Shown one piece after another: positions 22,942-63,783 of a stretch of 64,000 nt of DNA. The notes beneath the pieces were generated by a model that saw only the letters and a program-made list of their open reading frames with translations, did not search any database and was not told the origin of the DNA. This DNA comes from Corynebacterium faecale (lineage in GTDB: Bacteria > Actinomycetota > Actinomycetes > Mycobacteriales > Mycobacteriaceae). How positions within the stretch are numbered: the stretch's first letter is position 1; each line of letters begins with the position of its first letter. The position numbers and the translations under genes were made by a program. The stretch is from contig NZ_CP047204.1 in assembly GCF_030408735.1 (NCBI RefSeq), positions 1 to 64,000 on the forward strand, given 5' to 3'.

Positions 22942-22974
22942 AACGGTGCCTCCGCTTATGGACGGCACCGTTTT
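22942..22974 (+). terminator. Terminator with a CTTATGGA-bearing loop
   Basis: AACGGTGCC (22942-22950) pairs perfectly with GGCACCGTT (22964-22972), then TTTT. The loop contains CTTATGGA (22955-22962), the first copy of the iterated octamer in this window. Confidence 0.87.
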
Positions 22975-23114
22975 GTCATTCCAGGGTGTGGAGGAAGGTA
23001 TCTCCACAGCATGTGAAATAACAAAAACTCACTTGTTTCACACCGGAGGAATAATATCCCACACAGCTGTCCACAGATCCTGTGGAGAATGTGGAGAAAA
23101 CCCATCGGAAGAAG

Positions 23115-23434
23115 TTATCCACAGAAGTTATCCACATTGTGGATAGTAACATTCTTGTAATTCACTGCGGTTGTACGGCTCTCATGCTCTTCGAACATGC
23201 AGATATGATCGATAAATGCCTGGTAGCAGGTAAAATAATCGAACAATCCAAGTCCTGTTGAAAACTGTTCACAGAGTTATCCACAACCTGTGGAAAGTGG
23301 TCAAATGACAAAATATCACGCGGATACCCCCTGAATCCACAACTTTATCCACAACCTGTGGATAACTTTTCCCCCCGGTCGCGAACAGGGTTATCCACAA
23401 TTACATGTGTGTAACTCACTGGGCCTGTGGATAA
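23115..23434. other. Second dense DnaA-box cluster
   Basis: Seven perfect TTATCCACA boxes lie in 320 bp: 23115, 23128, 23277, 23345 and 23391 on the plus strand; 23357-23365 and 23426-23434 reversed. Near matches lie at 23138 and about 23290. Two pairs form inverted repeats (23345/23357, and 23277 with a near match). There is no gene between the rhomboid and crgA. The cluster is denser than the dnaA-dnaN one, so it is a candidate part of the origin or a DnaA-titrating site. Bases 23435-23774 hold nothing else recognisable. Confidence 0.85.
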
Positions 23435-23774
23435 CTTTTAATGACGGGGTCAAACTGCACAATTGCAGGGTGCAGAGCTCTAATAGACAACATGTTCGAC
23501 CCCGAAGAAGGGGGAGGGTGATAGGAAAATGGTATATATTCGCAGGTTAGTCGCGCTCCCTGTTCGAATAGTTTCCAGCTCTGCCCAACGTACATCAGTT
23601 CAATAGTGTAATTACAAGACTTCCCTCCCGGAAAGGGGGATGAGGGGGAGTGAAACCACCTATTGTGCCCCTGCCATGTCCGTTTGGCAGTGGGGAGTGT
23701 CCGAATAAGGGCACTTCTCAGGGCGCAATGGCGCCTCCTTCAGTGGGCGGGCCACCCTGTCTCATCAACGGACA

Positions 23775-23822
23775 CAAAAAACCGGGTACCACCGAGACAC
23801 TAGCGTCTCGGTGGCACCCGGT
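23775..23822 (-). terminator. crgA terminator
   Basis: A long stem (about 23779-23822) with arms ACCGGGT-A-CCACCGAGAC and GTCTCGGTGG-C-ACCCGGT. The A-run at 23775-23780 supplies the T-run for minus-strand transcripts. Confidence 0.9.
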
Positions 23823-23855
23823 TGTGCCTTCGCCGTAGAAGGTGGGGGAGGGCGG

Positions 23856-24128
23856 TTAACGCCAACCCATGGTCATCAACAGACCGATGATGATCAGGGC
23901 GAAACCGATACCGTAGTTCCAGGCATCCAGCTGTGCCATGAAGGCGATGTCCTCGCCTGCCAGGTAGTTGGTGACCAGCCAGATCAGGCCGATCAGCATG
24001 AAGGCGAACATGAGCACTATGTACCACTTGGGTGTTCCGGAGGAGTTGATCTTCACCGGGGTGCGGTTGGCGCTCGGGTTGCTGGATACCGGAGCGATTG
24101 CGTTCTTTGTAACTTTTGCCTTTGGCAC
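23856..24128 (-). CDS. crgA: Cell division protein CrgA
   Basis: CrgA is a small actinobacterial membrane protein that interacts with FtsZ, FtsI and other division proteins. The 90-residue sequence has a basic N-terminus and two transmembrane helices (about residues 35-55 and 70-88) with the conserved [20 protein letters not shown] and MTMGWR end. It precedes the pknB operon on the same strand, as in other actinobacteria. The 120-bp gap to pknB holds its promoter. Confidence 0.95.
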
Positions 24129-24248
24129 GTGATTACACCTTCATTTTTCTAGTCATTTGTGGGGTTCAAATAACCGTTACGTTCGTCTCTCGAGCTTAAC
24201 GTACCAGTTGTGTTCCCGGTAGCCGGGTAGCGGTACAGCTGCACCGGC

Positions 24249-26189
24249 CTATGGATTAGGCACCAGTGCAGTCAGATCAAATTGGTAGAGCCTGACTGTC
24301 ACCACGGAATCCTTACGGATCGTGTCACCGGGGGCGGGTTCCTGGAAACCGATGCGTGATTGGTCCACCAGGGCTGGAGTGGGGATCGGATCACCAACGG
24401 ACAGTGACTCAGCCGGTGCGGTCCAACCGGCGTCACGGAGCGCGTCCTCGGCAGCTGAGATATTCAGACGCGCCAGGTCAGGCATCTGGATGAGCATGCC
24501 GTTGGAGATCTCCACCACGAGTGTGGAACCCTTGGCCAATTCCGTGCCCTGTCCGCTTATGGAAAGGACCTGGCCTTCCGGCTGGCTGCTGTCCACGTAG
24601 CGGAGGTCCGGGATGAAACCCAGCGTGGTGATATTGCTCTGCGCCTGTGACCACTGCATGCCGTCGATCACCGGAACACGCACCAGGGATGCACCCGTGG
24701 AGATGGTCAGGGTCACGGTGGATCCGATGCTGACTTCCTCACCGGAGGGTGGGTTCTGTTCGGTCACGGAACCGGCGGCGTAGTCATCGGAGGTTTCTTC
24801 ACGGATGGACTGGTTGAGCACCAGTCCCGCGGCCTCGAGCTGACGGGTTGCTTCCTCGAGGGGGAGTCCCTCCAGGTCGGGGACCTGGACCATTTCGCGT
24901 CCCGTGGAGATGGTCAGGGTGACGGTGGCGCCTTCACGGATTTCAGAGCCCACGTTGGGGCTGGTGCGGATGACCAGGCCCTCGGTGACATCGGGGCTGG
25001 GTTCGGTGGTCACCACGACTTCGAAGCCGAGGTTGCGCAGTTCCAGGACGGCTTCGTTCTCCGGCAGACCCACGATGTTGGGGATCTGTTGGGTGCTGGC
25101 GGTGGAGCTGTTGGTCATGAAGTCATAGGTGAAGGCACCGGCCACACCGATCACGCCGAGGGTGAGCACGATGGCGAGGGTGGTCAGAATGGGTGATCCA
25201 CGTTTTTTCTCTCTGGCAGGAATGGTGGCCGGGGTGGGTGTGGATAAGCGTTGCGGTTCCACCCGGGTCGGCGCAACTGGGATGGGGGCCGGGGTCACCG
25301 GTTCGTCGGGTTTTTCCACGTGCGCACGCGCGGCGCGGGAGACCGCGTTGCGGGAGAGCAGTTCAAGATCAGCGGCCATCTCCGCGGCGGTCTGGTAGCG
25401 GTCGGCGGGGTGCTTGGCCATGGCGGTGAGCACCACCGCGTCCACGTTGAGGGCTGCGGTGGGGGAGAGGTCGGGGATGTACTCCGACGGTGGGGTCGGG
25501 TCCTCCTGCACATGCTGATAGGCCACGGCGAAGGGGGATTCGCCCTCAAAAGGTGGCCGGCCGGTGACCAGTTCGTAGAGGACGCAACCGGCGGCGTAGA
25601 CATCTGAGCGGGCATCGGCGGGTTTGCCGCGCGCCTGCTCTGGGGAAAGGTATTGAGCGGTGCCGATGACCGCGGAGGTCTGGGTCATCGCGGAGGTGGA
25701 ATCATCCAGGGCGCGCGCGATACCGAAATCCATCACCTTCACGCCACCGGTGTTGGTGATCATGATGTTGGCGGGTTTCACATCGCGGTGCACAATGCCC
25801 GCCTCGTGTGAGGACTGCAGGGCGTGGCACACCGGGATCATGATGGTGGCGGCCTGATTGGGGGTGTAGGCGCCGTCGTTACGGATGATATCCCGCAGGT
25901 CGCGGCCATGGACACGTTCCATGACGATATAGGGAACCGAGATGTCATCGCGGTGCACCTCGCCGGTATCAAACACAGCCACGATGGAGGAGTGGCTGAG
26001 CTTGCCGGAGTTCTGTGCCTCACGGCGGAAACGTTCCCGGAAGTTGGCGTCCTTGGCCAGGTCACTGCGCAGCATCTTCACGGCCACTTCGCGGCCGATG
26101 AGTATGTCGGTGGCGGAGAATACCTCGCTCATGCCACCGGAACCGATGCTGGAGCCAAGCTGATAGCGATCAGCGATCACAAAGCTCAC
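24249..26189 (-). CDS. pknB: Serine/threonine protein kinase PknB with PASTA domains
   Basis: Membrane kinase that controls cell-wall synthesis and division and senses muropeptides or lipid II through its external PASTA domains. The 646-residue protein has a Hanks-type kinase domain (about residues 9-270; VAVKML lysine, HRDVKPAN with catalytic Asp136, DFGIAR), a juxtamembrane linker, one TM helix (about 335-357) and four PASTA repeats to the C-terminus. The octamer CTTATGGA at 24556-24563 lies in the third PASTA repeat, where the sense strand uses a rare ATA codon. It is the last gene of the operon and overlaps pknA by 4 bp. Confidence 0.98.
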   Translation of the reverse strand: MSFVIADRYQLGSSIGSGGMSEVFSATDILIGREVAVKMLRSDLAKDANFRERFRREAQNSGKLSHSSIVAVFDTGEVHRDDISVPYIVMERVHGRDLRDIIRNDGAYTPNQAATIMIPVCHALQSSHEAGIVHRDVKPANIMITNTGGVKVMDFGIARALDDSTSAMTQTSAVIGTAQYLSPEQARGKPADARSDVYAAGCVLYELVTGRPPFEGESPFAVAYQHVQEDPTPPSEYIPDLSPTAALNVDAVVLTAMAKHPADRYQTAAEMAADLELLSRNAVSRAARAHVEKPDEPVTPAPIPVAPTRVEPQRLSTPTPATIPAREKKRGSPILTTLAIVLTLGVIGVAGAFTYDFMTNSSTASTQQIPNIVGLPENEAVLELRNLGFEVVVTTEPSPDVTEGLVIRTSPNVGSEIREGATVTLTISTGREMVQVPDLEGLPLEEATRQLEAAGLVLNQSIREETSDDYAAGSVTEQNPPSGEEVSIGSTVTLTISTGASLVRVPVIDGMQWSQAQSNITTLGFIPDLRYVDSSQPEGQVLSISGQGTELAKGSTLVVEISNGMLIQMPDLARLNISAAEDALRDAGWTAPAESLSVGDPIPTPALVDQSRIGFQEPAPGDTIRKDSVVTVRLYQFDLTALVPNP

Positions 26190-35384: not shown

Positions 35385-36303
35385 CGTTGGTCGCCTTGGG
35401 GGAGTAGAGGTTGAGGATGGACTCTTCCAGGTCAGGTTCCTCTATGGAGAGTGTGAGTACCTGGTAGTGGGCGAGGGCTTTGATCACTGCATCGATATCG
35501 CCCTGGATATTGGCGCTGAGTCTGACGGTGTGGTCCGGGGCGGGGGTTGCGTGGATGGCGTGCAGTTCGGGGATGGTGGCGAAGTGGGTGAGGAGGTCGT
35601 CGATAAGCGCTCCGGCGAGCACAGCTCGCAGGTGGGAGACGCCGGCCAGGCGTAAGGAGGAGACGTCGTTGTTGGCTACGATCCGGCCGCCGGCGAGCAC
35701 GGCGACCTCATCGGCGGTGTGCTGGATCTCGCTGAGTATATGCGAGCTGAGCAGCACTGTCTGGCCGTGGTCCCGGGCTTCGCGGACCAGGCCTAGGAAC
35801 TCGCGCTGCATGAGGGGGTCGAGGCCGCTGGTGGGTTCATCGAGGATGAGTAGTTCGGGACGGTGCATGAAGGCCTGCACCAGGCCGATCTTCTGCTTAT
35901 TGCCCTTGGACAGCGCACGCACCGGGCGGGTCAGGTCAAGGCCGAGGCGTTCGACGAGTGTGGCGGTGAAAGCCTCATCCACCGGGCCGCTGATCTTAGC
36001 CAGTTGTTTAAGCAGTGCTTTTCCGGTGACGCGGGTGTTGAGTTTTAATTCGCCGGGCAGATAACCGATGCGTTGACGTAACCGTGCATCCGAGTGGCGT
36101 GGAACCTCGCCCAGTACCGTGAGTTCGCCGTCGGTGGGGCGGATGACATCAACAAGCATGCGCAGAATCGTGGTCTTGCCTGCGCCATTGGGGCCGACCA
36201 GACCGAAGATGGAGCCCTGGCGCACAGTCAGGTCAATATCATCAACCGCGAGGTGCTGACCGTACCTTTTCTTCAGATGATGGGCGCGGATCACGGCAGT
36301 CAT
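35377..36303 (-). CDS. ABC exporter ATP-binding protein
   Basis: A 308-residue ATPase (CcmA/DrrA type) with Walker A GPNGAGKTT, signature LSKGNKQK, Walker B LLILDEPTSGLDP and the switch His in LLSSHILSE, followed by a C-terminal ~80-residue domain. The word GTCGATAAGC occurs inside the gene at 35599-35608. It is first in a two-gene operon with the permease. No regulator gene adjoins. Confidence 0.94.
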   Translation of the reverse strand: MTAVIRAHHLKKRYGQHLAVDDIDLTVRQGSIFGLVGPNGAGKTTILRMLVDVIRPTDGELTVLGEVPRHSDARLRQRIGYLPGELKLNTRVTGKALLKQLAKISGPVDEAFTATLVERLGLDLTRPVRALSKGNKQKIGLVQAFMHRPELLILDEPTSGLDPLMQREFLGLVREARDHGQTVLLSSHILSEIQHTADEVAVLAGGRIVANNDVSSLRLAGVSHLRAVLAGALIDDLLTHFATIPELHAIHATPAPDHTVRLSANIQGDIDAVIKALAHYQVLTLSIEEPDLEESILNLYSPKATNDA

Positions 36304-39331: not shown

Positions 39332-39426
39332 CGCTTATGGAAGCTTTTCCCCACGATGCCCCCGGTGTGTTCTACCCTGGGGACACAATTGACGCCGGGG
39401 TCAACAACACCCACGAGGAGACCTGT

Positions 39427-41408: not shown

Positions 41409-42155
41409 TCACACCGTGTGTGGGAGGATCCTCCGCCCGGGACGCACATCGGCCCACGTCAAGGGGATGTCGGAGATACTGACGATCAGCTTGGACTTAT
41501 CATCCAGCCCATCAGCGGCCTCGAAGTCCTCAGCGCTTTGGGTATCATCAACAAACACGAAATAGGGATAGTCCAGGCACTCCTCATTCATCCCCGCCAA
41601 CTGAGCGGCCCATTTTCCGTGCTGATCCTCCGGTTCCGTCGGGAGGTAGCGGCCCAGATCGCGCGGAATACGGCGCTCAAATCCCTGGATTTCCTCTATG
41701 GAACCCGCAATATCGAACTCCTCAGCCAGCTGCAGCGCAGAATGGGCGATGGCCACGGCCTGTGACATGGTCGGATTCCTACGCACCGCCGTGCCCAGGC
41801 TGTCCACCAGCTGCCGCAGCAACAGCACCCGGCGGGTCAGATCAACCTGGGCGCGATCCTCGCACAGTGCGTCAATCAGGTGGTGTGCGAAGGCAAGTTC
41901 CACGTAATACTGCACAGCACTGACCGGGCGGTCCGCCGAGAACAACAACTCCTGATCCTCCCGGTAGTAATGGTGGAGCTGGCAGTATGTGGTGATCGAT
42001 TCCCTCAGGCCCTCCACGAAGGCCATGTGCTGCAGATCAAAGGCAGCCCCCTCATGCGGGTGGAGCTCGATGGACACCGAGGTGGTGGCATCAGGCAGGT
42101 CATAAACGACACTGACATCCGGGTCGAACTCTTCAACTGGGTCATCTGTGTGCAT
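41409..42155 (-). CDS. Hypothetical protein
   Basis: A 248-residue soluble acidic protein starting MHTDDPVEEFDPDV. The middle is strongly helical (QYYVELAFAHHLIDALCEDRAQVDLTRRVLLLRQLVDSLG). No signal peptide, membrane segment or catalytic motif is visible, and no family was recognised. It runs convergent to the DUF2254 gene and lies 91 bp from the FUSC gene on the same strand. Confidence 0.75.
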   Translation of the reverse strand: MHTDDPVEEFDPDVSVVYDLPDATTSVSIELHPHEGAAFDLQHMAFVEGLRESITTYCQLHHYYREDQELLFSADRPVSAVQYYVELAFAHHLIDALCEDRAQVDLTRRVLLLRQLVDSLGTAVRRNPTMSQAVAIAHSALQLAEEFDIAGSIEEIQGFERRIPRDLGRYLPTEPEDQHGKWAAQLAGMNEECLDYPYFVFVDDTQSAEDFEAADGLDDKSKLIVSISDIPLTWADVRPGRRILPHTV

Positions 42156-42246: not shown

Positions 42247-43362
42247 CTATTGCAGGATCTCTTCACGTCGGGCGGCGCGGACTTCATCCACTAATGACAC
42301 GATATGCCTCAACCCCGTGATCAATGATCCATAGACAGGCCATAGTTTAGAGGGCAGGTCTTCGTCCTCGGACATCTCCCGGGACAGATCATCGATCCGC
42401 ATCCTGAGCCGCTCGGAATCAGTGTCCACATCCGGATCGGAGATCGCCTGCCCGGCATCACAGGCGATGGCAGACCACTTCTCACGGAAACGCTCGTCCC
42501 AGGGACTGTTGTCATAGGTGGCGTCGCGGAGGATATGGGTGATGGTATGCAGGTGGGATAACCCATCCTTCGCCTGTTCCAGCACCTGCTCCCAGTTGGG
42601 GCCATCAACCGGATCAGGCGCAGTGGGTTGACGCCGCAGGTGGATATGCCTACGGGGATTGGCCCGGCGGCTTTCCCGCGCAAACCGCACCGTGGACCAG
42701 GCCGATTCCAATTCCGACTCCAGTGATTCGATCTCCTTGATCCATTCCTCGGCACATTCCGTATCCCAGGATGAGGAGATTTCCTGGCCCATGTCCCCCA
42801 AAACATCACCCATGCGCCTGGTGATGCTATCCAGATAACCCGCAGCCTGCCGATCCCGCAACGGGGGCATGATCAACAGATTCACCAGAATGCCGATGAG
42901 CACGCCGACGATGATCTCCACCATGCGTTCACCGAAGTTACGGGATTCCTCAGTAAAACCATCGCTGAGCAGGAAGATCGCGGTGGTGGCCACCGTGATG
43001 CCCTCTTCACGGATCCACCTGATCCTGGCGATCACCAGGCCGACGAAGATGGCCACCGCATAGGACCACACCGTCACACCCAGGAAATTACCCACCATAA
43101 ATGTCACCACGATGCCCAACACTGATGCGATTGTTGATTGCACACCCCGCGACAAGGTCCGGTAGGCGGTGGCCTGGATGGTGAGCAGCGCCGTCCACGG
43201 CGCCAGGAACGGCAGGGAGGTTTCCAGGAAGTTCACCGAGATCCACCATGCGAGGGTGGTGGCAAAGATGATCTTCACCATCTGGATCAATGAGGTCTGG
43301 AATTCCGGTCGCCTGAGCCGTTCCATAAGCGGATTACCAAGACGTTGCACGGCTGGGTTCAT
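42247..43362 (-). CDS. FUSC-family (aromatic acid exporter-like) membrane protein
   Basis: A 371-residue protein. The N-terminal half has about six membrane segments with the FUSC/ArAE pattern (FLAPWTALLTIQATAYRTLSRG and RIRWIREEGITVATTAIFLL), and the C-terminal half is a charged soluble domain. Related proteins export aromatic acids or resist drugs. The start is chosen at ATG 43362; ATG 43404 in the same frame is also possible. Longer upstream extensions look non-coding. Confidence 0.82.
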   Translation of the reverse strand: MNPAVQRLGNPLMERLRRPEFQTSLIQMVKIIFATTLAWWISVNFLETSLPFLAPWTALLTIQATAYRTLSRGVQSTIASVLGIVVTFMVGNFLGVTVWSYAVAIFVGLVIARIRWIREEGITVATTAIFLLSDGFTEESRNFGERMVEIIVGVLIGILVNLLIMPPLRDRQAAGYLDSITRRMGDVLGDMGQEISSSWDTECAEEWIKEIESLESELESAWSTVRFARESRRANPRRHIHLRRQPTAPDPVDGPNWEQVLEQAKDGLSHLHTITHILRDATYDNSPWDERFREKWSAIACDAGQAISDPDVDTDSERLRMRIDDLSREMSEDEDLPSKLWPVYGSLITGLRHIVSLVDEVRAARREEILQ

Positions 43363-43687: not shown

Positions 43688-44683
43688 ATGCTGAGCCGGC
43701 TTGACGACGACCTCCACTCCGACCGCCCCCTTGTAGTCTTCCTCGGCGACAACATTGATGAGGAAGACCACGATGTGTTGTTCCCCGCGATGCGTGAACG
43801 CGGGGTGGCGGTGGTGCGCGTACACCCGGATGACCTGGTCGTGGAAATGACCGACACCGGCATCGGGTTCTTCGTGGCGGGTCAACGCCTTGAACCCGAC
43901 CTGGTGATCGGATGGGTGCTCGACGAGCTGCTTATCCCCGGCATGGCGCACCTGGATGTGTTCCGTCGCGCCGGGATCCCCGTGATCAATGATGCGGTCA
44001 CCCTCTTCCGCGCGCAGAACAAATACCTGGACAGCTCCATGCTGAGCCTGGCCGGTGCACTGGGGTATCCGGTGCTCACCAGCCACGACCCGGAGGCACT
44101 GGAGAAGTGGGTGCGTGATCTCAACGGCCCGGCAGTGATCAAACCGCTTGTCGGTTTCGGCGGACGGGGCCTGCGCAAAATCGAGGGTGAAAACGACCTG
44201 CAGGACCTCCTGACGGAGCTGCGTCGCGACGGTGGCTCCTACTACGCCGTGCCATGGATCGAGAACCCCGGCCGCGACATCCGCGTCTACACCATCAACC
44301 ACCAGCCGGTGTTCGCCATGTACCGCTACGCCCCGCCGGGCAAATGGATCACCAACATCCACGCCGGTGGTGGACTGTCCATGTGCCCCCTGACCCCGGA
44401 GATCAGTACTCTGGCACGCCGGGCCTCCCAGGGGGCCGGCGCCCTCATCGGCGGCATTGACATCGGTGAGAACACCGCCACCGGCGAGCTGGTGGTCTAC
44501 GAGGTCAATTCCTGTCCCACCTGCGAACCCCCCGCACTGGAGGCCCTGGCGGATTTCCTCGCCCTGGCCGCCCGCGATCTCGACCACGCGCTGGTCACCT
44601 GGGAGCCGTCAAAGGTCTATACCGAACTGGACACCGCTCCCGACCTCTTCCATAAGAGCAAACAGGGGCTGTTGCGCGCATAA
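43688..44683 (+). CDS. ATP-grasp (RimK/GshB-like) ligase
   Basis: A 331-residue ATP-grasp protein that would couple ATP hydrolysis to carboxylate-amine ligation. The sequence shows VIKPLVGFGGRGLRKI (ATP-binding loop), PWIENPGRDIRVYTI and the metal-binding VVYEVNSCPTCEP. ATG 43688 follows GGGAGG by about 11 bp; upstream in-frame starts run through the 15-mer. Substrate is unknown. RimK or glutathione-synthetase-like enzymes in this fold modify peptides or proteins. Confidence 0.85.
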   Translation: MLSRLDDDLHSDRPLVVFLGDNIDEEDHDVLFPAMRERGVAVVRVHPDDLVVEMTDTGIGFFVAGQRLEPDLVIGWVLDELLIPGMAHLDVFRRAGIPVINDAVTLFRAQNKYLDSSMLSLAGALGYPVLTSHDPEALEKWVRDLNGPAVIKPLVGFGGRGLRKIEGENDLQDLLTELRRDGGSYYAVPWIENPGRDIRVYTINHQPVFAMYRYAPPGKWITNIHAGGGLSMCPLTPEISTLARRASQGAGALIGGIDIGENTATGELVVYEVNSCPTCEPPALEALADFLALAARDLDHALVTWEPSKVYTELDTAPDLFHKSKQGLLRA

Positions 44684-44684
44684 C

Positions 44685-44699
44685 GCTTATCGACGCCCC
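44685..44699 (-). repeat. GGGGCGTCGATAAGC word (inverted), right of ATP-grasp gene
   Basis: Exact inverted copy starting 2 bp after the ATP-grasp stop. On the minus strand it contains the last codons and the TAA stop of the 866-residue gene that ends at 44687. Confidence 0.92.
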
Positions 44700-47287: not shown

Positions 47288-48636
47288 ACTCCTTCTCTGG
47301 TCTCAGTCGACAGGGCTGCAGCCAGCAGATGTTTGCATGGTCCCCGGGAACCGCGGGTGCGCAGATACCAGGTGCAGGAGCAGGTGCCCTTGTCCGGAAT
47401 GACCTGATAACTGCGGGCACCGCTGCGTACATTGGCGGTGAGTCGGTCCTTGCTCCAGTGGACGGCGCGGGCGTCGACAAGCCGTCGGGCCCCGACCAGA
47501 CGCGGGTTATCGCGTGCCACCTGCTCCGGATCGTGGGGTAACTCCCGGTGATAGTAAGCCTGCTCGGCGATGTCCCAACCCACCTTCCCGCTGGCAGCGA
47601 GGGAGGCAAGGGCCTGGTCAACCCGGACCCGCTCCAATCCTGTGTCCAGTGCCAGGAGATCAGGGGAGATACGGGAAGAGAAACCCAGCTGCGTGGCCAG
47701 CAGATCTGCATCATCAACCACATCTTCAGAGGCCATTGCAGACAACAGGGACCCCTCTCCGGAGAAACCACGGGAGGGTTCTTCCGACAGTGCGAGAGTG
47801 ATAGCCGCCCCGGGCAACCGGCATTCCATCACCACACCGGCGCCGGATCCGGCGTCCTGGTAGATCTGCACACCGGTGAGCAGAGATAACAGGCGTCGCA
47901 GCGGCTGGAGGCGGACAGGCCCAGGGATGCGCACAGCACCAGGAACCGGACGGGCAGATACGTTCACACCTCTGGTGGAGGCCTGGACCCACACCGTGTC
48001 CACCTTTGCCTGGGGCAGGGCCATCAATAGACGACGCGCCCCACGTCCATCCAGGTCGAGCACTCCCGAGAAGCCGCGGTGGATCTCCGCGACATTGCCG
48101 AAGGCCCGTACCCACCGGGTAGGCATGACAACCTTGCGTTCCGACTCCGTGCGCTCCAGGGTTGAGACATTCACATGCTGGGAACCGACATCGAGATGAA
48201 GCAGTTCATTGTGGTGGATCCCGGAGAGCATCTGTTGGAGATGATCCCCAAGGTCGACATTGGTGGTGCCATAACCGATCTCCCCACCATCAAGGCCGTC
48301 AGCGCCCAGATCCAAGCGTGCGCTGACACTGTTGCAGGCAGAAAAGACCTCTGCACGCAGGCGATCACCGTGGGCGGTGAATACCGGATCGCGCATTGCT
48401 GCGGCTGCTGCCATCTGCGGCGGGACGAAATAACGGGTTCGGGTGACCTCTGCCAGAACCAGGAGACACTGAGCGTAGACCTTCGGCTGAGTAAGAAAGC
48501 CATGGAAGAAACTGGGGGAGGAATCCACCCCCTCCGGGGTCAGCGCCGGGGCCAGGGCGAGTGCCAGGCCTGTTTCATCCAAGGTTGAACTGGTGCTGAA
48601 GGATGGACCCTCTGGTGCAAGTGTTCTGCGGGTCAT
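47284..48636 (-). CDS. SWIM zinc-finger protein
   Basis: A 450-residue protein whose C-terminus carries a SWIM finger (about residues 410-445: CSCTWYLRTRGSRGPCKHLL, pattern C-x-C-x(n)-C-x-H), which binds zinc and usually nucleic acid or a protein partner. The rest has no recognised enzyme domain. ATG 48636 follows GGGAG by about 9 bp. It is the first gene of a two-gene operon; MoxR, VWA and DUF5682 genes that accompany similar SWIM proteins elsewhere are absent here. Confidence 0.8.
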   Translation of the reverse strand: MTRRTLAPEGPSFSTSSTLDETGLALALAPALTPEGVDSSPSFFHGFLTQPKVYAQCLLVLAEVTRTRYFVPPQMAAAAAMRDPVFTAHGDRLRAEVFSACNSVSARLDLGADGLDGGEIGYGTTNVDLGDHLQQMLSGIHHNELLHLDVGSQHVNVSTLERTESERKVVMPTRWVRAFGNVAEIHRGFSGVLDLDGRGARRLLMALPQAKVDTVWVQASTRGVNVSARPVPGAVRIPGPVRLQPLRRLLSLLTGVQIYQDAGSGAGVVMECRLPGAAITLALSEEPSRGFSGEGSLLSAMASEDVVDDADLLATQLGFSSRISPDLLALDTGLERVRVDQALASLAASGKVGWDIAEQAYYHRELPHDPEQVARDNPRLVGARRLVDARAVHWSKDRLTANVRSGARSYQVIPDKGTCSCTWYLRTRGSRGPCKHLLAAALSTETREGV

Positions 48637-48823: not shown

Positions 48824-48850
48824 GAATTGGTTATTTCCCTTATGGAGGGA

Positions 48851-51199: not shown

Positions 51200-51200
51200 C

Positions 51201-52574
51201 CTAAATCCCCAACACCGCCTTCGCGATGAGGAAATAGATCACCAACCCCACCGCATCCACGAACGTGGTGATGAACGGATTCGAGAACACCGCCGGATCA
51301 GCACCCACCACCTTCGCGATGATCGGCATGATCCCGCCCACCATTGCCGCCAAGGTACACACCACAAACAGCGTCATCCCCAGCACCAACCCGATCGACA
51401 CTCCATAGAGGACACCGAGCAGGATCCCGAACAGTGCGCCCAGCATGGTGCCCAGGGTCAGGCCCACCCTCGTCTCACGCCACAGCACAGCCATCACATC
51501 GCGTTTACGCACATCCCCCAGCGCTAAAGACCTGGTCACCGTCGTGGCCGCCTGGTTTCCGGTGTTCCCACCCGTACCCGTGATCAACGGGATGAACAGA
51601 CTGAGCACCACCGCTGCGGCCAGGGCATCCTCGAAGGCGTCGAGCACACTGACCGTGAGCAACGCCGACACCGCCAGCACTCCCAACCAGACGATCCGCG
51701 ACCGCACCAACCGCCACACCGGCGTGGTCAGATACGGCTGCTGGAGCGGTTCAGCACCACCGGAACGGGCGGTGTCCTCGTTGTCGGCATTCTCGATGAT
51801 GTCCACGGCATCATCAATGGAGAGGATCCCCACCAGGCGGGTGGAATCATCCACCACCGGCAGGGCCAACAGATCCAGGGCACGGAACCAGCGTGCGGTC
51901 TCCTCATCCGGGGCAGCGGTGTGTGCGTAGACGGGTGTGTCCATAAGCGAGGCAACGGGTTCATCGGCATCCGCCATCAGCAGTTTCCTCAGGCTTGTCA
52001 CACCCACCAGTTTCCGATCGCCCCTGATGATGGGGACGGTGTAGATCGTCTCTACACGGTCATTTTGTTCCCGCAGTGCAGTCAGGGCTTCGGCGGCGGT
52101 GAGATCCACCCGGACCATGGGCACCTCCGGGGACATGTGCCGGCCTATGGAACCCCTCGGATAACCCAGAACCACACTGGTCAGGCCATACTCCGAGGCA
52201 TCGAGACTGCGCATGAGCCTCTCGACGATCTCCGCAGGCAACTCATCCAACAGGGACACCCGGTCATCAGGGTCGAGGGCTTCGAAGAAGGAGGCGAGGG
52301 AATCGTCGCCAAGCGCGTCAACCAGGTCCGCCTGATGGGCGGCGTCGAGTGCCTCAAAGGCCACAATCGAACGCTGGCGGGGCAACAACCGCAAGATCAG
52401 AGCCGCGCGCACCGGCGACATTCGCTCCAGGAGGCTGATCACATCCTTGATCGGGATATCCTCCGAAAGCTCAGAGATCATCCGCGCACGTTCCGGCGCC
52501 AGGTCGCCGTTGGTCCGCAGAATCAATTCGAGCTGGTTGATGGCCTCATCCGGGCGTTGTGCGGACTCCGACAT
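51201..52574 (-). CDS. mgtE: Magnesium transporter MgtE
   Basis: Mg2+ channel gated by cytoplasmic Mg2+. The 457-residue protein has the N-domain of Leu-rich helices (about residues 20-130), two CBS domains (about 135-260) and five membrane segments from about 300, with the conserved LIPLITGTGGNTGNQAATTV pore region. Start ATG 52574 has AAAGGAG about 9 bp upstream; an in-frame ATG at 52628 is less likely. TCCATAAG (plus strand 51940-51947) lies within the CBS region. It is flanked by the 15-mer (3') and by an inverted pair of octamers (5'). Confidence 0.95.
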   Translation of the reverse strand: MSESAQRPDEAINQLELILRTNGDLAPERARMISELSEDIPIKDVISLLERMSPVRAALILRLLPRQRSIVAFEALDAAHQADLVDALGDDSLASFFEALDPDDRVSLLDELPAEIVERLMRSLDASEYGLTSVVLGYPRGSIGRHMSPEVPMVRVDLTAAEALTALREQNDRVETIYTVPIIRGDRKLVGVTSLRKLLMADADEPVASLMDTPVYAHTAAPDEETARWFRALDLLALPVVDDSTRLVGILSIDDAVDIIENADNEDTARSGGAEPLQQPYLTTPVWRLVRSRIVWLGVLAVSALLTVSVLDAFEDALAAAVVLSLFIPLITGTGGNTGNQAATTVTRSLALGDVRKRDVMAVLWRETRVGLTLGTMLGALFGILLGVLYGVSIGLVLGMTLFVVCTLAAMVGGIMPIIAKVVGADPAVFSNPFITTFVDAVGLVIYFLIAKAVLGI

Positions 52575-52590: not shown

Positions 52591-52652
52591 GGCAGGCTCC
52601 CGCTTATGGAACGGGCAATCCGAAGCACATCTTAATCACCCTTCCATAAGCG
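52591..52652. repeat. Inverted octamer pair CGCTTATGGAA / TTCCATAAGCG
   Basis: CGCTTATGGAA (52591-52601) and TTCCATAAGCG (52642-52652) form an 11-bp perfect inverted repeat with 40 bp between. They lie between the divergent mgtE and metal-binding genes. Confidence 0.85.
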
Positions 52653-53018: not shown

Positions 53019-53035
53019 CACCCCCGTCCATAAGG

Positions 53036-55087: not shown

Positions 55088-55101
55088 GCTCCTTCCATAA
55101 G

Positions 55102-55136: not shown

Positions 55137-55225
55137 TTCTTCTTATCAGAACTTATGCTTCTGGTGAACACGTGGGCGTGGGGCCCGCGCCCACGGCACC
55201 CACCGTTTCCATAGGCGGGGCGAGG

Positions 55226-55240: not shown

Positions 55241-55243
55241 ACA

Positions 55244-56377
55244 CTACATCCACTTACTGCGCTTGAAAATCCAATAAAGCAGCACCGCCAGCGCCACCAT
55301 GGCGAGCAACGCCACCGGGTACCCGAACGCCCAGTGCAACTCCGGCATGACATCGAAGTTCATGCCGTAGATAGAACCGATGAGGGTCGGAGCGAAGAGG
55401 ATCGCGGCCCAACCGGAAATCTTCTTCATATCCTCGTTCTGTCGCTCCGCCACCAGCGTGGCGTTGACGCTGAGGATCTGCGAGAGCGATTCGCGGTACT
55501 CCGCCACCCGGCTGTTGTCGCGGGTGAGGTGATCGGCCACGTCCTCGAGATAGGCACGCAACTCATCCGGCACACCATTACGGATGAAATCCTTCTGCAG
55601 GCGCTGCACCACCTCGCTTATGGAAGACGTGGTGTGCTGCATGTCGATGATCTCCTGGCTCAGGCGGTAAATACGCTGCGCGACGGCGACATCCCCACTG
55701 AACACCTGGCGTTCAATCTGCTCCTGGTCAATGGAAATACCGCGCAGCACCGGGGCATAACCATCAACGATGAGGTCAATGAGCCGGTAGGCCACCGCGC
55801 GCGGTCCCAATTTGAGCAACTCACCATCAGACAGGAGAGCTTTCACCCGACGGTCGAATTTCCTGCTGTCCGAATCCGCAAACAGGGAAGCGGCGGTGCC
55901 ATCAACCCACTGATTATCCTGACACAGCACCACAATCGCGTTGCCCTTCATCACGATGTGGAACTCAGCGAACTCGACTTCCTCAGTTTCATCGATATAA
56001 CGCGCCGACCGCACCGCCATGAACACCACATCCCCATAACGATCCAGTTTGGGACGCTGCTGCGCCACAATGAGATCCTCCACGATCATGGGGTGCAGAT
56101 CCCACGCATCGGCAAGTTCCTGGATCGCGGCGCGGGTGGGGGCGGGATACAACGACATCACCATCCGGTTGGATGCACCGTCCGCAAACCTCAGACCATC
56201 CGCCACCGTGGCCCCCAGCGGAGGTTTATCCGCCACGCCGTCAGTCACCCAACGGGTCAGGGGAGCGGTCTCAGAGTTCTGCGCGGGCGGACTGGGAGCC
56301 CCCGGAACGGCAACATACCTGCGGCGCAGAATTTCCCTGCGCCGCGAGATTCCGTTTGCATCGTTCTTCTTCGGCAT
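55244..56377 (-). CDS. corA: CorA-family magnesium/divalent cation channel
   Basis: Mg2+/Co2+ channel. The 377-residue protein has a large cytoplasmic domain and two C-terminal membrane helices with the YGMNFDVMPELHW signature (GMN) and a short basic tail (FKRSKWM). ATG 56377 has GAGG about 8 bp upstream; ATG 56404 is less likely. CTTATGGA at 55617-55624 falls in the gene where the sense strand reads TCC ATA AGC, a rare Ile codon. Together with MgtE this gives two Mg2+ systems in 5 kb. Confidence 0.94.
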   Translation of the reverse strand: MPKKNDANGISRRREILRRRYVAVPGAPSPPAQNSETAPLTRWVTDGVADKPPLGATVADGLRFADGASNRMVMSLYPAPTRAAIQELADAWDLHPMIVEDLIVAQQRPKLDRYGDVVFMAVRSARYIDETEEVEFAEFHIVMKGNAIVVLCQDNQWVDGTAASLFADSDSRKFDRRVKALLSDGELLKLGPRAVAYRLIDLIVDGYAPVLRGISIDQEQIERQVFSGDVAVAQRIYRLSQEIIDMQHTTSSISEVVQRLQKDFIRNGVPDELRAYLEDVADHLTRDNSRVAEYRESLSQILSVNATLVAERQNEDMKKISGWAAILFAPTLIGSIYGMNFDVMPELHWAFGYPVALLAMVALAVLLYWIFKRSKWM

Positions 56378-56479
56378 TCCACCCTCATTCCGCCCTCGGT
56401 CCACGTCACACGTACCTCACCAGTATCGCTTATGGACGGTGGTGGGGCGGTAACGGGCGTGCGGCGCCGGGCCCGTGGA

Positions 56480-57943
56480 TTAGATCGGGTAGGCGTCGGT
56501 GCCGGTGGTCACGCTGACCCAGTGATCGGTGGTGAACTCATCGATGGCCCATTCACCGTTGAAGCGACCCAGGCCGGAGTTCTTCTCGCCACCGAACATG
56601 ACGTGGGCTTCATCGTTGACGGTGATGTCATTGATGTGGGTCATGCCGGCCTCCACCTTGCGGGCGAAGTTGAGGCCACGCTGCAGGTCCTCGGTGAACA
56701 CCGCGGAGGAGAGGCCAAATTCGGTGTCATTGGCCAGCTCCAGTGCATGGGCCTCATCATTGGCCTTGACCACGCCGACCACCGGTCCGAAGATCTCCTC
56801 ACGGAACAGCTCCATATCCGGGGTGACATCGGCGAACACATGCGGTGAGATCACGCGGCCTTCGATCGGGCCGGCCACGAGCTCGCGGGCACCCTGCTCG
56901 CGGGCGAGGGTGATTTTTCCGGTGACGGATTCCACCTGGGAATCATTGACGATGGGGCCGATCATGGTGGCATCGTCAAGCTGGTCTCCATAAGCGACAT
57001 TCTTGACACGTGCAGCGAAGGCCTCGAGGAACTGGTCATAGACCGGGGCCTCGACGATGATGCGGTTGACCGCCATGCAGATCTGACCCTGGTGCAGGAA
57101 GCTACCCATCGAGGCGGCGGCGACGGCCTTGTCCATATCGGCATCGCTGAGCACCACCATCGGGGCGTTGCCACCCAGTTCGAGGGCGACCTTCTTGATG
57201 TGCTTGCCGCCCGTAGCCGTGGCACCTACCTGCTTGCCCACCGGGGTGGAACCCGTGAAGGAGATCAGACGCGGAATGGCGTGCTCCACAAAATAATCAC
57301 CGATCTCTGAACCGGCACCGACCACCACGTTGAACAGTCCAGTCGGCAGGCCGGCAGCCTCGAAGATATGCGCCAGCAGGGTGCCGCCCACGAGCGGGGT
57401 GTCAGACGCAGGCTTGAGCACCACGCCGTTGCCGCAGGCCAGGGCAGGTGCCACCGAACGCATGGACAGTGCAAACGGGAAGTTCCACGGGCTGATCACA
57501 CCCACCACGCCCAGCGCCTCACGGAACACATAATTGGACTTACCCGGGGTGTTCGACGGCAGGATCTGGCCGGTGATGCGCGCCGGGAAGGTAGCAGCCT
57601 CACGCAGCGAGGCGATGGCCAGGCCAGCCTCGATATTGGCCTTGAGTGCGGTGGAACCTGACTCCCGGCGGATCAGCTCCACGATGGCCTCACGGTTATC
57701 GCCGATGACATCCGCCGCCTTGTTCAGGATGGCCGTCTTCTTCACCGGCGGCAGAGCCGCCCAGTCCTTCTGGACCTGCGCCGCGGTGGAGTACGCCTTG
57801 TCCACATCCTCCTGGGAGGCATTCTGGATGGTGGTGATCTCCTCACCGTTGAACGGGTTCACCGTGGTGGTGGCCCGCTCCGAAGAACCATCGGCCCAAC
57901 CGCCGATGAAGATCTGGTTGCTCACGAAATTCTCAGTACTCAT
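56480..57943 (-). CDS. Aldehyde dehydrogenase (benzaldehyde/vanillin type)
   Basis: NAD(P)+-dependent oxidation of an aldehyde, probably aromatic, to its acid. The 487-residue protein has PWNFPFALSM, the catalytic Glu in VALELGGNAP, catalytic Cys289 in QGQICMAVNR and a C-terminal GGEKNSGLGRF motif. ATG 57943 is preferred to the ORF-extending ATG at 58000. The neighbouring catIJ-pcaD genes support an aromatic substrate. TCCATAAG occurs at 56987-56994 (inside) and at 57969-57976 (upstream). Confidence 0.92.
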   Translation of the reverse strand: MSTENFVSNQIFIGGWADGSSERATTTVNPFNGEEITTIQNASQEDVDKAYSTAAQVQKDWAALPPVKKTAILNKAADVIGDNREAIVELIRRESGSTALKANIEAGLAIASLREAATFPARITGQILPSNTPGKSNYVFREALGVVGVISPWNFPFALSMRSVAPALACGNGVVLKPASDTPLVGGTLLAHIFEAAGLPTGLFNVVVGAGSEIGDYFVEHAIPRLISFTGSTPVGKQVGATATGGKHIKKVALELGGNAPMVVLSDADMDKAVAAASMGSFLHQGQICMAVNRIIVEAPVYDQFLEAFAARVKNVAYGDQLDDATMIGPIVNDSQVESVTGKITLAREQGARELVAGPIEGRVISPHVFADVTPDMELFREEIFGPVVGVVKANDEAHALELANDTEFGLSSAVFTEDLQRGLNFARKVEAGMTHINDITVNDEAHVMFGGEKNSGLGRFNGEWAIDEFTTDHWVSVTTGTDAYPI

Positions 57944-58142
57944 CTGACGTCCTCGTTTTCTCCTGCGCTCCATAAGCGCGCCGATACGGATTCTCCCCAC
58001 AGGTTAATGATGATCCGCCCACTCCTGTGGTAAGGGTTACACCTGGGGGTGTCGACCAGGGGTCATCGGATGCCCCTCGGCGCAACGCGCCGCTTATGGA
58101 ACGCCGCAAGTCCCGCATGAATGTTGGCTGGGTGCGGCGAGG

Positions 58143-58157: not shown

Positions 58158-58190
58158 TTGGGTTCGCTTCCATAAAGGAAAGGATCTCCC

Positions 58191-59462: not shown

Positions 59463-59551
59463 CCCCTCGAACAGCACTTCCGCTTGTGCCGCAAGGGGAG
59501 GTGAGGTGGGCGTGGGCAAGCGTCTCTCATGAAAGTATCCAGGCCATACTT

Positions 59552-59588: not shown

Positions 59589-59617
59589 TCAGTGTGAGGA
59601 TCAAGGAAAGGGTTCTG

Positions 59618-60538
59618 ATGGAAAAGACAAAGGTAACAACACTCAGCGAAGCCATCGCCACATATGTCCACGACGGTTGCTCACTCTCCATAGAGGGTTT
59701 TACCCACATAATTCCCTATGCCGCGGCCCATGAAATCATCCGCCAACGGATCAAGAATTTAGATATTTACCGGATGACCGCGGATATCGTGGTTGATCAA
59801 CTCATCGCGGGGGACTGCGTTAAGTCACTGACCTCATCATTCATCGGCAACAGCTCGGTGGGTTCACTACATGAACTAAGACGCCGAATTGAAGGACGTG
59901 GACGTGCACCCCTCAAATTCAATGAATACAGTCACGGCGGAATGATCGCCCGATACCTCGCCGGTGCCTCAGGCCTGCCCTTCTATCCGGTTCTTTCCTA
60001 CGCAGGATCCGATCTTCCGAAGATCAACCCCGAGATCCGCGTGATGGAATCCCCTTATGGAGGCGAAAAGGTATATGTCGTGCCACCAATCAACCCCGAC
60101 GTTGCGATCCTCCACGCACAACGCGCCGACCGGAAAGGCAATGTCCAAATCTGGGGCCTCACCGGCATTCAGCAGGAAGTGGCCTACTCCGCCAAGCACA
60201 TCATTGTCACAGTTGAAGAAATCGTCGAAGACGATGTCATCACCTCCGACCCCAACCGCACCCTCCTCCCCAGCCATGTGGTTGACGCGGTAGTTCCCGT
60301 CCCCCGCGGTGCACACCCCTCCTTTGTGCAGGGTTATTACGACCGCGACGGCGACTTCTACCGCGCCTGGAACGACATCAGCAAAAACCCTGACACCCTC
60401 GACCGCTGGATGCAGGAATGGATCTTCGACCTGGAAGTCCACAACAACTACGTGAACAAACAAGGCGCAGCATTCTGGGAACGCCTGGACGCGCCGTATG
60501 TCCCATCCCTGCCAGTCAACTACGGAAGCAGGAAATAA
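59618..60538 (+). CDS. catI: 3-oxoadipate CoA-transferase subunit A (CatI)
   Basis: With CatJ, transfers CoA from succinyl-CoA to 3-oxoadipate in the beta-ketoadipate pathway. The 306-residue protein has the glutaconate/CatI-type features: VALEGFTH-like start (LSIEGFTHIIPYAAAHEIIRQ), RMTADIVVDQLI, YAGSDLPKINPEI and DVAILHAQRADRKGNVQIWG. The start is ATG 59618, with AAAGGG upstream. Its TAA overlaps the catJ ATG (TAATG). Confidence 0.93.
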   Translation: MEKTKVTTLSEAIATYVHDGCSLSIEGFTHIIPYAAAHEIIRQRIKNLDIYRMTADIVVDQLIAGDCVKSLTSSFIGNSSVGSLHELRRRIEGRGRAPLKFNEYSHGGMIARYLAGASGLPFYPVLSYAGSDLPKINPEIRVMESPYGGEKVYVVPPINPDVAILHAQRADRKGNVQIWGLTGIQQEVAYSAKHIIVTVEEIVEDDVITSDPNRTLLPSHVVDAVVPVPRGAHPSFVQGYYDRDGDFYRAWNDISKNPDTLDRWMQEWIFDLEVHNNYVNKQGAAFWERLDAPYVPSLPVNYGSRK

Positions 60539-61314: not shown

Positions 61315-61389
61315 CCATCCCTCCATAAGGGATTCCCTCCGGAATTTCTCACCAGATTTTTCCACACACATTAAATAAGGAGAACAATC

Positions 61390-62190
61390 ATGCTTCATTA
61401 CATCCAGTCCGGAAACATCAACGGACCAGCAATCCTCATGGGCAGCTCCCTCGGAACTACCTCCCGCATGTGGGAAAATGTCCTTCCGTATCTAGAAGCC
61501 ACCCACAATGTCATCCGCTTCGACACCGCCGGCCACGGACAGTCCGCAGCGGGAAGCGCACCGGTACCCGCTGGGGAAACCTCCGATGCCACGGTGGAAG
61601 CCTTCGCAACTGATGTGCTCAAACTTGCCGATGTACTGAAGATTGAAAAATTCTCCTACATCGGACTTTCCCTCGGCGGTGCCATCGGCCAGCAGCTGGC
61701 ACTGGATGCACCTGAGCGACTCGAGAACCTCATAGTCACCTGCACCGCCGCCAAGTTCGGCGCACCAGAAATCTGGCAGGACCGCGCCAAAAACGTCCGT
61801 GAACAAGGCATGGACTGGCTCCGTGAACCCAGCGCCAGCAAATGGTACACAGAAGGTTTCGCTGACAAGAGCCAAGAAGCTCAACTGCTCCTGGATGACC
61901 TCGTAGCGCTCGACCCAGAAGGCTACGCACAAGCGTGCGACGCCGTCTCCAAATTTGATGTCACCAACCGACTCAAGGACATCACCACCCCAACACTCGT
62001 CATTGCCGGCTCCGAAGACGTATCCACCCCACCAGCCGTCGTCCAGATCATCGCCGACAACATCCCAGAAGCCAGCTTCGAAGTCATTGAAGGCGCAGCA
62101 CATATCGGCAACATCGAGGCACCGGAACAGTACGGTGCCATGATTGCCAGCTTTCTCCAGCCTTCCATAAGGGAATCAGCGCGTCTGTGA
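61390..62190 (+). CDS. pcaD: 3-oxoadipate enol-lactonase (PcaD-like)
   Basis: Alpha/beta hydrolase that opens 3-oxoadipate enol-lactone. The 266-residue protein has nucleophile Ser94 in GLSLGG, DTAGHGQS and the base His in EGAAHIGNIEAPEQ. The coding 3' end contains TCCATAAGG (62164), read as S-I-R with two rare codons (ATA, AGG). It lies in the cat/pca cluster after catJ. Confidence 0.9.
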   Translation: MLHYIQSGNINGPAILMGSSLGTTSRMWENVLPYLEATHNVIRFDTAGHGQSAAGSAPVPAGETSDATVEAFATDVLKLADVLKIEKFSYIGLSLGGAIGQQLALDAPERLENLIVTCTAAKFGAPEIWQDRAKNVREQGMDWLREPSASKWYTEGFADKSQEAQLLLDDLVALDPEGYAQACDAVSKFDVTNRLKDITTPTLVIAGSEDVSTPPAVVQIIADNIPEASFEVIEGAAHIGNIEAPEQYGAMIASFLQPSIRESARL

Positions 62191-62219
62191 CGTTGCGAAT
62201 CCGGTAGTTTCCTTTCCCC

Positions 62220-62276
62220 AGAGCCGACTGTCTAGGGGATCCCTCCATAAGGGGGATCCCCTAGACAGTCGGCTCT
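62220..62276. terminator. 24-bp perfect hairpin with TCCATAAGG loop
   Basis: Arm 62220-62243 is the exact reverse complement of 62253-62276, with a 9-base loop TCCATAAGG (62244-62252). No T-run follows. It probably terminates pcaD, but the length and the loop content are unusual. Confidence 0.8.
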
Positions 62277-62332
62277 ATGTGCTGGTTGCAGGACTATGGG
62301 AGGTGCTGTTTTGGGTATCGGCTTCTTAGCGA

Positions 62333-62344
62333 TCCGATATTGGA
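62333..62344. promoter_or_regulatory. Operator copy before the MHS transporter gene
   Basis: TCCGATATTGGA, one mismatch from the palindrome core at 59552. Confidence 0.5.
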
Positions 62345-62442
62345 CTCAAAAGTGATCTCTTGCGAGAGTATTGATAGATGTAATTCACATCACAAACAAT
62401 TACCGTTGTTCCATTGTTGGATATTCCTCTGAGGGGGTCCCC

Positions 62443-63783
62443 ATGCAAACCTTGACCGAAACCCAGGAGCTGAAAGCAGCTCGTCGTAAAGCAATCACTG
62501 CTGGCGGTATTGGAAACTTCGTTGAGTGGTTCGACTTTGCGCTCTACGCACAGTTCGCCACCATCATCGGTTTTCACTTCTTCCCATCGAATGATCCAAC
62601 CGCCAGTCTTCTCGCAACCTTCGCCGTGTTCGCAGTGGGCTTCCTCGCACGCCCCCTCGGTGGCCTCCTCTTTGGCCAGTACGGTGACCGTAAAGGCCGT
62701 AAGGCCGCATTATCCCTAGCGGTTCTCCTCATGAGTGGCGCGACCCTCGCCATCGGCCTAACCCCCTCCTACGCCACCATCGGCGTCGCAGCACCCGCCC
62801 TGCTCCTTGTCTGGCGCATCCTGCAGGGACTTTCTGCCGGCGGTGAATACGCAGGAGCCAGTAGCTTCGTGGTGGAATACGCCCCAGTAGGGAAACGTGC
62901 ACTCTTCGCCAGCATCAACCCGGTAGCAACCGCACTAGGCACCATCGGTGGCGCAATGACCGGCCTCATCGTCACCTGGGCTGTGCCCGACGATGCCCTC
63001 GAAGCATGGGCGTGGCGCATCCCCTTCATCGTCGCCGGCCCCCTCGGCATCGTAGGCCTGTACCTGCGCTCCAAGGTCGAAGAAACCCCAGAGTTCAGTG
63101 CAGTACTCAAGCAAACCGAGAACACGGGGAAACAACACGCCCCGGTAGTAGAGGCTTTCCGTACCACCAAGGGACGCATGCTCATTCTGTTCGGATGGTC
63201 AGCGCTCAATGCAGTGGCCTTCTACCTTCTGACCAGCTACATGGTTGCCTACATGACACAACGAGTTGGTTTCGAACAATCTGAAGCCCTCGGAATCTAC
63301 ATCATTGGTCTGGTCGCCTTCGCACTCGCCTGCCCCATCGCCGGCATACTCATCGACCGGTACGGACCACCCAAGGTCGCCGTCGGTTCCGCAATCCTCC
63401 TCGCCGCCCTAGTCATCCCAGCGTTCGGCCTTATGGAAACAGCAACCCTTACCTCCGCAATCATCGGACTGAGCATCTACGGCATGGTAGTAGCCTGCAT
63501 CGCAACCCTCACCCCGCTGCTCATGGTCGACCTCTTCCCAGTACACATCAGATACACCGCCAGCGCTGTGTCTTACAACCTGGCCTACGCAGTATTCGGC
63601 GGAACCGCCCCATACTTCGCCACCTGGATTGTCGCCCGCACTGACATCGGTGAAATGCCTGGCTATTACGTCATGAGTCTCTGCGTCCTTGGTGTCATCG
63701 TTGCCACGGTTGGCATGACCAAAATGTACCGAGGTAATAAGGTCCAGGATCCGGAAATCGCCAAGGTTATGGCAACCGTTTAA
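62443..63783 (+). CDS. MHS-family MFS transporter
   Basis: Metabolite:H+ symporter with 12 membrane helices. The 446-residue protein has the MHS signatures IGNFVEWFDFALYAQ, GQYGDRKGRKAAL and RILQGLSAGGEYAGASSFVVEYAP. ATG 62443 follows a GAGGGGG site. The context suggests uptake of an aromatic or dicarboxylic acid of the beta-ketoadipate route. CTTATGGA occurs at 63430-63437. Confidence 0.92.
   Translation: MQTLTETQELKAARRKAITAGGIGNFVEWFDFALYAQFATIIGFHFFPSNDPTASLLATFAVFAVGFLARPLGGLLFGQYGDRKGRKAALSLAVLLMSGATLAIGLTPSYATIGVAAPALLLVWRILQGLSAGGEYAGASSFVVEYAPVGKRALFASINPVATALGTIGGAMTGLIVTWAVPDDALEAWAWRIPFIVAGPLGIVGLYLRSKVEETPEFSAVLKQTENTGKQHAPVVEAFRTTKGRMLILFGWSALNAVAFYLLTSYMVAYMTQRVGFEQSEALGIYIIGLVAFALACPIAGILIDRYGPPKVAVGSAILLAALVIPAFGLMETATLTSAIIGLSIYGMVVACIATLTPLLMVDLFPVHIRYTASAVSYNLAYAVFGGTAPYFATWIVARTDIGEMPGYYVMSLCVLGVIVATVGMTKMYRGNKVQDPEIAKVMATV

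Follow-up and report, generated by a model that had tools for sequence, protein, structure and literature searches.

The word TCCATARRSG and its array

The first 64,000 bases of contig C1 of Corynebacterium faecale (C1:1-64000 of the source genome, G000; this whole stretch is called the window) begin with dnaA at base 1, followed by dnaN, recF, gyrB, and gyrA, and contain 22 copies of the octamer TCCATAAG, as against a mean of 1.02 and a largest count of 4 in 100 dinucleotide shuffles. The window is the left flank only of a larger array of a word, for which we use the working form TCCATARRSG, and the density of this word peaks past the window end at a gene for a DUF222-HNH protein. A sequence-only reading of the window had noticed 21 octamers, all of them beyond the first 22.9 kb. 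Twenty of its coordinates are correct, but 52593 should be 52603 and the copy at 8965 had been omitted, so that the first 22.9 kb is not devoid of the octamer. The octamers, sites, and variants of the window are as follows.

8965..8972, plus strand: octamer TCCATAAG, isolated, followed by CA
16819..16828, plus strand: variant TCCATAAAGG
22953..22962, minus strand: site TCCATAAGCG
24554..24563, minus strand: site TCCATAAGCG, within a PASTA kinase gene
35439..35448, minus strand: variant TCCATAGAGG
39332..39341, minus strand: site TCCATAAGCG
41693..41702, minus strand: variant TCCATAGAGG
43322..43331, plus strand: site TCCATAAGCG
44649..44656, plus strand: octamer, followed by AG
48837..48846, minus strand: site TCCATAAGGG
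51402..51411, plus strand: variant TCCATAGAGG
51940..51949, plus strand: site TCCATAAGCG
52601..52610, minus strand: site TCCATAAGCG (the corrected 52593)
52643..52652, plus strand: site TCCATAAGCG
53027..53034, plus strand: octamer, followed by GC
55094..55101, plus strand: octamer, followed by CC
55208..55217, plus strand: variant TCCATAGGCG
55615..55624, minus strand: site TCCATAAGCG
56427..56436, minus strand: site TCCATAAGCG
56987..56996, plus strand: site TCCATAAGCG
57969..57978, plus strand: site TCCATAAGCG
58091..58100, minus strand: site TCCATAAGCG
58169..58178, plus strand: variant TCCATAAAGG
59687..59696, plus strand: variant TCCATAGAGG
60052..60061, minus strand: site TCCATAAGGG, in the segment 59.9-66.5 kb
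61322..61331, plus strand: site TCCATAAGGG, in the same segment
62164..62173, plus strand: site TCCATAAGGG, in the same segment
62244..62253, plus strand: site TCCATAAGGG, in the same segment, in the loop of a long inverted repeat
63430..63437, minus strand: octamer, followed by GC
63788..63797, plus strand: variant TCCATAAAGG, in the same segment; the array continues past the window

The octamer density climbs through the window and continues past its end, with 10, 11, 17, and 12 copies per 10 kb across 50-90 kb, followed by 4 and 2; the genome total is 141 copies (73 on the plus and 68 on the minus strand). Comparison of the 38-120 kb region with control stretches yielded an enriched set made up of TCCATA followed mainly by AGC, GGC, GAG, or AGG, and TCCATA itself occurs there 131 times, where about 26 copies are expected. 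TCCATARRSG was counted 74 times in C1:40-120 kb, against 0.8-1.05 expected from Markov models of order 1 to 3. Over 240 kb sampled on the terminus side (12 pieces of 20 kb), the same word was counted 4 times (1.5-2.5 expected) and the octamer once (2.7 to 3.9 expected). The count is near the Markov expectation only on the terminus side, and the origin-side array lies far above it; the octamer observation, as first noted, is partly confirmed. Because terminus-side counts are near expectation, we rejected the idea that the word is depleted at the terminus rather than enriched at the origin. Chance, base composition, or a mobile repeat is a next to impossible source of the array, given the excess of the word, an information content that is near zero farther than about 3 bases from the word on both sides, and the retention between species described below.

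The array was compared with those of C. pacaense (G153), C. gallinarum (G091), and a genome which we take to be C. efficiens (G079); a further genome, G099, is presumably C. glutamicum. The base just 5' of the word varies among species: it is C in 42 of 59 sites in C. efficiens and 43 of 61 in C. gallinarum, C or T in 63 of 75 in the source genome, and T in 64 of 77 in C. pacaense, where C precedes it in 65 of the 77. The strands are balanced (38 of 75 sites on the plus strand in the source genome), and a word tied to replication direction was rejected on this ground. Site pairs no more than 25 bp apart are all convergent (three in the source genome, two each in C. efficiens and C. gallinarum, and one in C. 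pacaense).

The word occupies mainly one region. Within 400 kb of oriC lie 72 of the 80 plus-strand sites listed for the source genome; the remaining 73% of the chromosome holds 8, and 10 of 87 sites in C. efficiens are this far away. DNA uptake sequences are likewise conserved words iterated on both strands, but they are spread genome-wide, and an uptake sequence, one of the functions first proposed, is unsupported since the present word is regional. The peak has a shoulder, in that 34 of the 80 listed plus-strand sites of the source genome and 18 of the 87 sites of C. efficiens lie within 400 kb of oriC yet more than 50 kb from the DUF222-HNH gene. Stretches of the left arm have a low, broad density of sites (17 in 90 kb in the source genome, 8 in 120 kb in C. 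efficiens, and 22 in 100 kb in C. pacaense).

The DUF222-HNH gene at the centre of the array

The DUF222-HNH gene is located at C1:70989-72359 on the minus strand, 7 kb past the window end. In all four species mapped, the peak of site density fell inside this gene or within 100 bp of it. The density maxima (3-kb Laplace kernel) of the four pieces were at 70900, 90750, 121450, and 93350, and the gene spans, in the same order of pieces, 70989-72359, 89866-91227, 121525-122886, and 93395-94738. The distance from the gene to dnaA is +71, +90, +116, and +151 kb in the four species, and the peak is on the gene each time; therefore, the peak goes with the gene, not with oriC. These results show that the gene is the centre of the array. 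Mapping of source-genome genes onto C. efficiens, C. gallinarum, and C. pacaense gave a peak neighbourhood of phoH2, a 2-hydroxyacid dehydrogenase gene, the DUF222-HNH gene, a gene for a 141-amino-acid protein, and a biotin-synthase-like gene. All four carriers mapped have the same order next to the DUF222-HNH gene, apart from an extra stretch of about 10 kb after the gene in C. pacaense; this argues that the gene has not moved recently.

Among 242 Corynebacterium genomes, TCCATAAGCG was found 108 times in C. pacaense, 65 times in the source genome, 37 times in C. gallinarum, and 32 times in C. efficiens; the others have at most 9 copies each, except G089 with 14, which are scattered, form no cluster, and are not accompanied by a tight orthologue. 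Tight orthologues of the source protein are present in 5 of the 242 genomes, the four others being 63-84% identical to it (at most 6 candidates were scored per genome). Genome-wide site counts are high in four of these five carriers, and on a 28-kb contig of the fifth, the draft genome G223, there are 23 sites, which become sparser with distance from the gene. In C. glutamicum the immediate neighbours are those of the carriers, but the dehydrogenase gene and the 141-amino-acid gene (aligned starts 116 bp apart) have no DUF222 gene between them, and none of 26 aligned coding positions carries a site. These results show that the gene and the array occur together. At the corresponding place in C. 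glutamicum, and in G089, which keeps little of the local gene order, a search for a locally enriched word gave none comparable (best z scores 9 and 12). Because the tree is weakly supported (FastTree 0.914; IQ-TREE 68), we do not claim a loss in C. glutamicum as against a gain elsewhere.

The word could be a mark of the origin domain read by another chromosome-organising protein, with the DUF222-HNH gene at its centre by coincidence. Such a mark would account for the low shoulder of sites over the origin-proximal part of both arms, but it is made improbable by the peak on the gene in four of four species at four dnaA distances, and by the joint absence of gene and sites from C. glutamicum.

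The HNH domain is near the C-terminal end of the protein (residues about 340-421). Its HH...N...HH motif is intact in all five orthologues, and Pfam HNH was found in 25 of 26 homologues. The predicted N-terminal domain (residues about 50-185) had as its best structural match, among the listed folds and leaving room for unlisted ones to fit too, that of B. subtilis Noc on its site (7ol9). A resemblance to ParB/Noc DNA-binding domains is thereby supported by a model only. No ParB-type family, and with it no CTPase domain, appeared among 25 of 28 Pfam families listed for the 26 homologues at E values up to 10, a test of sequence alone, and PADLOC gave no defence family for the protein. We infer that the DUF222-HNH protein probably binds TCCATARRSG.

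DUF222-HNH-like matches number 3 to 12 per genome in six genomes, many of them in the HNH part only. Seventeen 40-kb loci around some of the better-scoring DUF222 paralogues (8 in the source genome, C. pacaense, and C. glutamicum; 9 in G241 (two), G247, G150, G103, G072, G173, G242, and G076) contained 0 to 3 TCCATARRSG each, and no private word like that of the positive control. The positive control reached a z score of 57 in the nine-locus set, and the best others, 27 and 21, were both from G241, the former a palindrome counted on both strands and the latter the genome-wide second word.

The second word, GTCGATAAGC, is one base off in the core that it shares with the present word, TC[C/G]ATAAGC. 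Spread over the whole genome and on both strands, it occurs 255 times in the source genome, 307 times in C. glutamicum, and up to 798 times (in G218), against 0-16 for the reversed control. Its counts are bimodal over the 242 genomes, with at least 23 copies in 165 and fewer in 77, a cut chosen after the counts had been seen. In the window it is found near 35600, 40005, 41353, 43638, 44686, 49605, 51186, 55232, and 58149, and (C)GTCGATAAGC is often preceded by about 20 G-rich bases. Genomes rich in GTCGATAAGC comprise 19 of the 20 with a close DUF222-HNH homologue (E <= 1e-75) versus 146 of the 222 others (Fisher p 0.005, uncorrected for relatedness), which suggests from sequence that DUF222-HNH paralogues may read words of this kind. 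Two results weigh against such a role of paralogues: the number of first-look DUF222 candidates correlated only weakly with GTCGATAAGC copies (Spearman 0.30, p 0.06, for the 40 genomes listed), and two genomes with more than 20 DUF222 candidates are without GTCGATAAGC.

Placement and retention of the sites

All coding and noncoding shares are based on gene calls by a simple script of our own, a non-standard annotation. By these calls, 13 of the 22 octamers in the window are fully noncoding, where the noncoding share is 0.204 (binomial 8e-5); the intergenic excess first noticed is upheld, and its number, twelve, is not. The 9 octamers within genes are read in several frames, as had been stated, and are on either strand. 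At 38-125 kb, 32 of 76 TCCATARRSG are fully noncoding (share 0.208) and 42 are wholly within genes, again on either strand. The 32 noncoding sites are spread over tandem (15 sites in 9402 bp), divergent (13 in 5245 bp), and convergent (4 in 3432 bp) spacers. The supposed preference for gene ends is not upheld, and an mRNA-end signal is unsupported because convergent spacers are not favoured.

The noncoding over-representation would fit a transcriptional regulon or an RNA-level signal, with the word as a regulator's operator or as an element of mRNA ends. Set against this are the many sites wholly within genes, the use of spacer types roughly by their length, and the unrelated functions of the scanned genes of the region. 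Rfam searches of the window and of C1:60-100 kb found three tRNAs and one FMN riboswitch only, with no family coinciding with the sites. Largely refuted by the gene-centred density, an explanation of this kind is very improbable.

Sites in coding sequences of the source genome are also sites in C. efficiens in 23 of 36 cases, in C. gallinarum in 25 of 40, and in C. pacaense in 12 of 27, as compared with control fractions of 0.28, 0.30, and 0.15, respectively, from 400 pooled permuted words. The values for C. efficiens and C. gallinarum are not independent, since these are close relatives (98%). The comparison shows retention of sites from one species to another. Of 104 residues at site codons, 72 are the same in C. 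glutamicum, a fraction of 0.69 as against 0.791 for the other residues of these genes, and this lower identity suggests that the word cost amino-acid changes. Occurrence on both strands and in several frames, the less conserved site codons, and retention above the permuted-word controls support the proposal of a DNA-level word. Of the three functions offered by the sequence-only reading, whose interpretation is partly supported overall, a protein-binding site fits best.

A gene-centred region and its possible role

To our knowledge, few proteins mark a region of a bacterial chromosome by an iterated word, and we know of none that has a nuclease domain together with an array peaking on its own gene. 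ParB/parS shares with the present system iterated short sites near oriC, an array close to the gene of its putative binder, and possibly, by the model, a ParB-like DNA-binding domain. In contrast to parS, TCCATARRSG is non-palindromic, has about a hundred sites where there are 7 exact parS here, and lies on the other side of oriC; the protein has an HNH domain and no listed ParB-type Pfam domain, and is restricted to 5 of 242 genomes of the genus. The 7 exact matches to the parS consensus and 1 with one mismatch were located at C1:2915403-2963108, left of oriC (the contig being taken as circular), and one two-mismatch match lies at C1:140230; parS are also left of oriC in C. efficiens (circular contig) and left of dnaA in C. 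gallinarum and C. pacaense. Identity with parS was rejected, as the true parS are elsewhere and the word is not the 16-bp palindrome. According to PMC7083940, C. glutamicum has 10 parS, all on one side.

The predicted match of the N-terminal domain may relate the protein to Noc, of nucleoid occlusion, and its binding sites (Noc/NBS), from which the system differs in the array peaking on the gene itself and in the HNH domain. Noc-type sites avoid the terminus region; here the terminus side is near chance level and not empty. The Noc site is a word unrelated to TCCATARRSG. In the E. coli macrodomains (PMC5441646), too, one region is marked by a protein and a short word, MatP having 23 matS sites in Ter and MaoP a lone maoS near oriC. 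The confinement of most TCCATARRSG to one chromosomal region agrees with this type, and the present array differs in being origin-side, in having far more sites, and in its centre on a nuclease-domain gene. Bacterial proteins in which an HNH domain is fused to a part of ParB type are known as ParB-CTPase-HNH fusions (PMC12704722, the main text of which does not contain the term DUF222); they are described there with a ParB-CTPase fold, whereas the likeness here is that of the DNA-binding domain only. By the features compared, the present system cannot be filed as a member of ParB/parS, Noc/NBS, or MatP/matS, and its likeness to them is by analogy, in that the word marks a region. Among the open-access papers listed by our searches, none reported the word or a DUF222-HNH function, which does not prove that print holds no such report; open-access papers with DUF222 in their text, a match that also takes DUF2220-like numbers, have titles that show no study of the family.

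The reading we prefer, with a probability of about 55%, is that the word represents recognition sites of the DUF222-HNH protein, making a gene-centred, origin-side nucleoprotein region. A ParB/Noc-like helix-turn-helix domain would read TCCATARRSG, and the protein would load preferentially near its place of synthesis, covering the surroundings of its own gene and, at a lower density, both arms close to the origin. The coated region would form on the opposite side of oriC from parS. Selection tied to the gene would keep the sites, including those in coding sequence, and sites would be absent where the gene is absent. Such a region may serve the cell, through organisation or nuclease sequestration, or the gene, through drive or addiction; we hold a role for the cell to be somewhat likelier, since sites persist at places where a cut would do harm. 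Tentatively, the array may be regarded as a binding or sequestering region of the chromosome rather than a set of nuclease targets.

The sporadic, gene-centred pattern could also reflect a selfish DUF222-HNH drive or addiction module. Its linked sites would serve as decoys, or as targets cleaved under certain conditions, and would shield the carrier or favour transfer and conversion of the linked region, so that sites would accumulate more the nearer they are to the gene. A selfish module would fit the peak that follows the gene rather than oriC, the gene's sporadic distribution (5 of 242 genomes, with absence from C. glutamicum) and intact HNH motif, the site codons less conserved towards C. 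glutamicum, and the sites in the segment 59.9-66.5 kb. This segment, partly past the window, has no blastn match in the compared pieces of C. efficiens, C. gallinarum, C. pacaense, and C. glutamicum, and it contains 5 sites, with 1 more just before it, at about the local site density. Cleavage, however, is expected to erase sites and not to accumulate them. In addition, a scan of neighbours, some without any family match, gave no antidote, methylase, or mobile-element family, and the gene order common to carriers indicates no recent move. On balance we consider a selfish module unlikely.

If the DUF222-HNH protein does recognise the word, the array supplies a possible DNA target for its family, and does so in relatives of C. 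glutamicum, a much-used laboratory organism. Gene and sites that are present or absent together offer a natural contrast for how regional DNA words arise and persist. With rather less confidence than for the binding region itself, we propose that the system could be a new class of chromosomal element, in which a DNA-binding protein with a nuclease domain has its word accumulate by closeness to its own gene (along the chromosome, perhaps in space) as a self-written address region; paralogues may read GTCGATAAGC.

Several features of the surrounding DNA were also observed. A long near-perfect inverted repeat at about 62219-62276, with the octamer at 62244 in its loop, lies downstream of a gene ending at 62190. 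Three adjoining genes at 43688-48636, encoding a RimK-like ATP-grasp protein, a DUF7824-like protein, and a SWIM-domain protein (PADLOC match SWIM_XIII), are 94-99% identical to their counterparts in C. efficiens and C. gallinarum, where flanking genes are 71-90% identical; this suggests a recent exchange or strong constraint. Past the window, five genes at C1:101288-107116 are 94-99.6% identical to those of C. gallinarum, and four of them are without a match in the C. efficiens piece, which suggests recent transfer.

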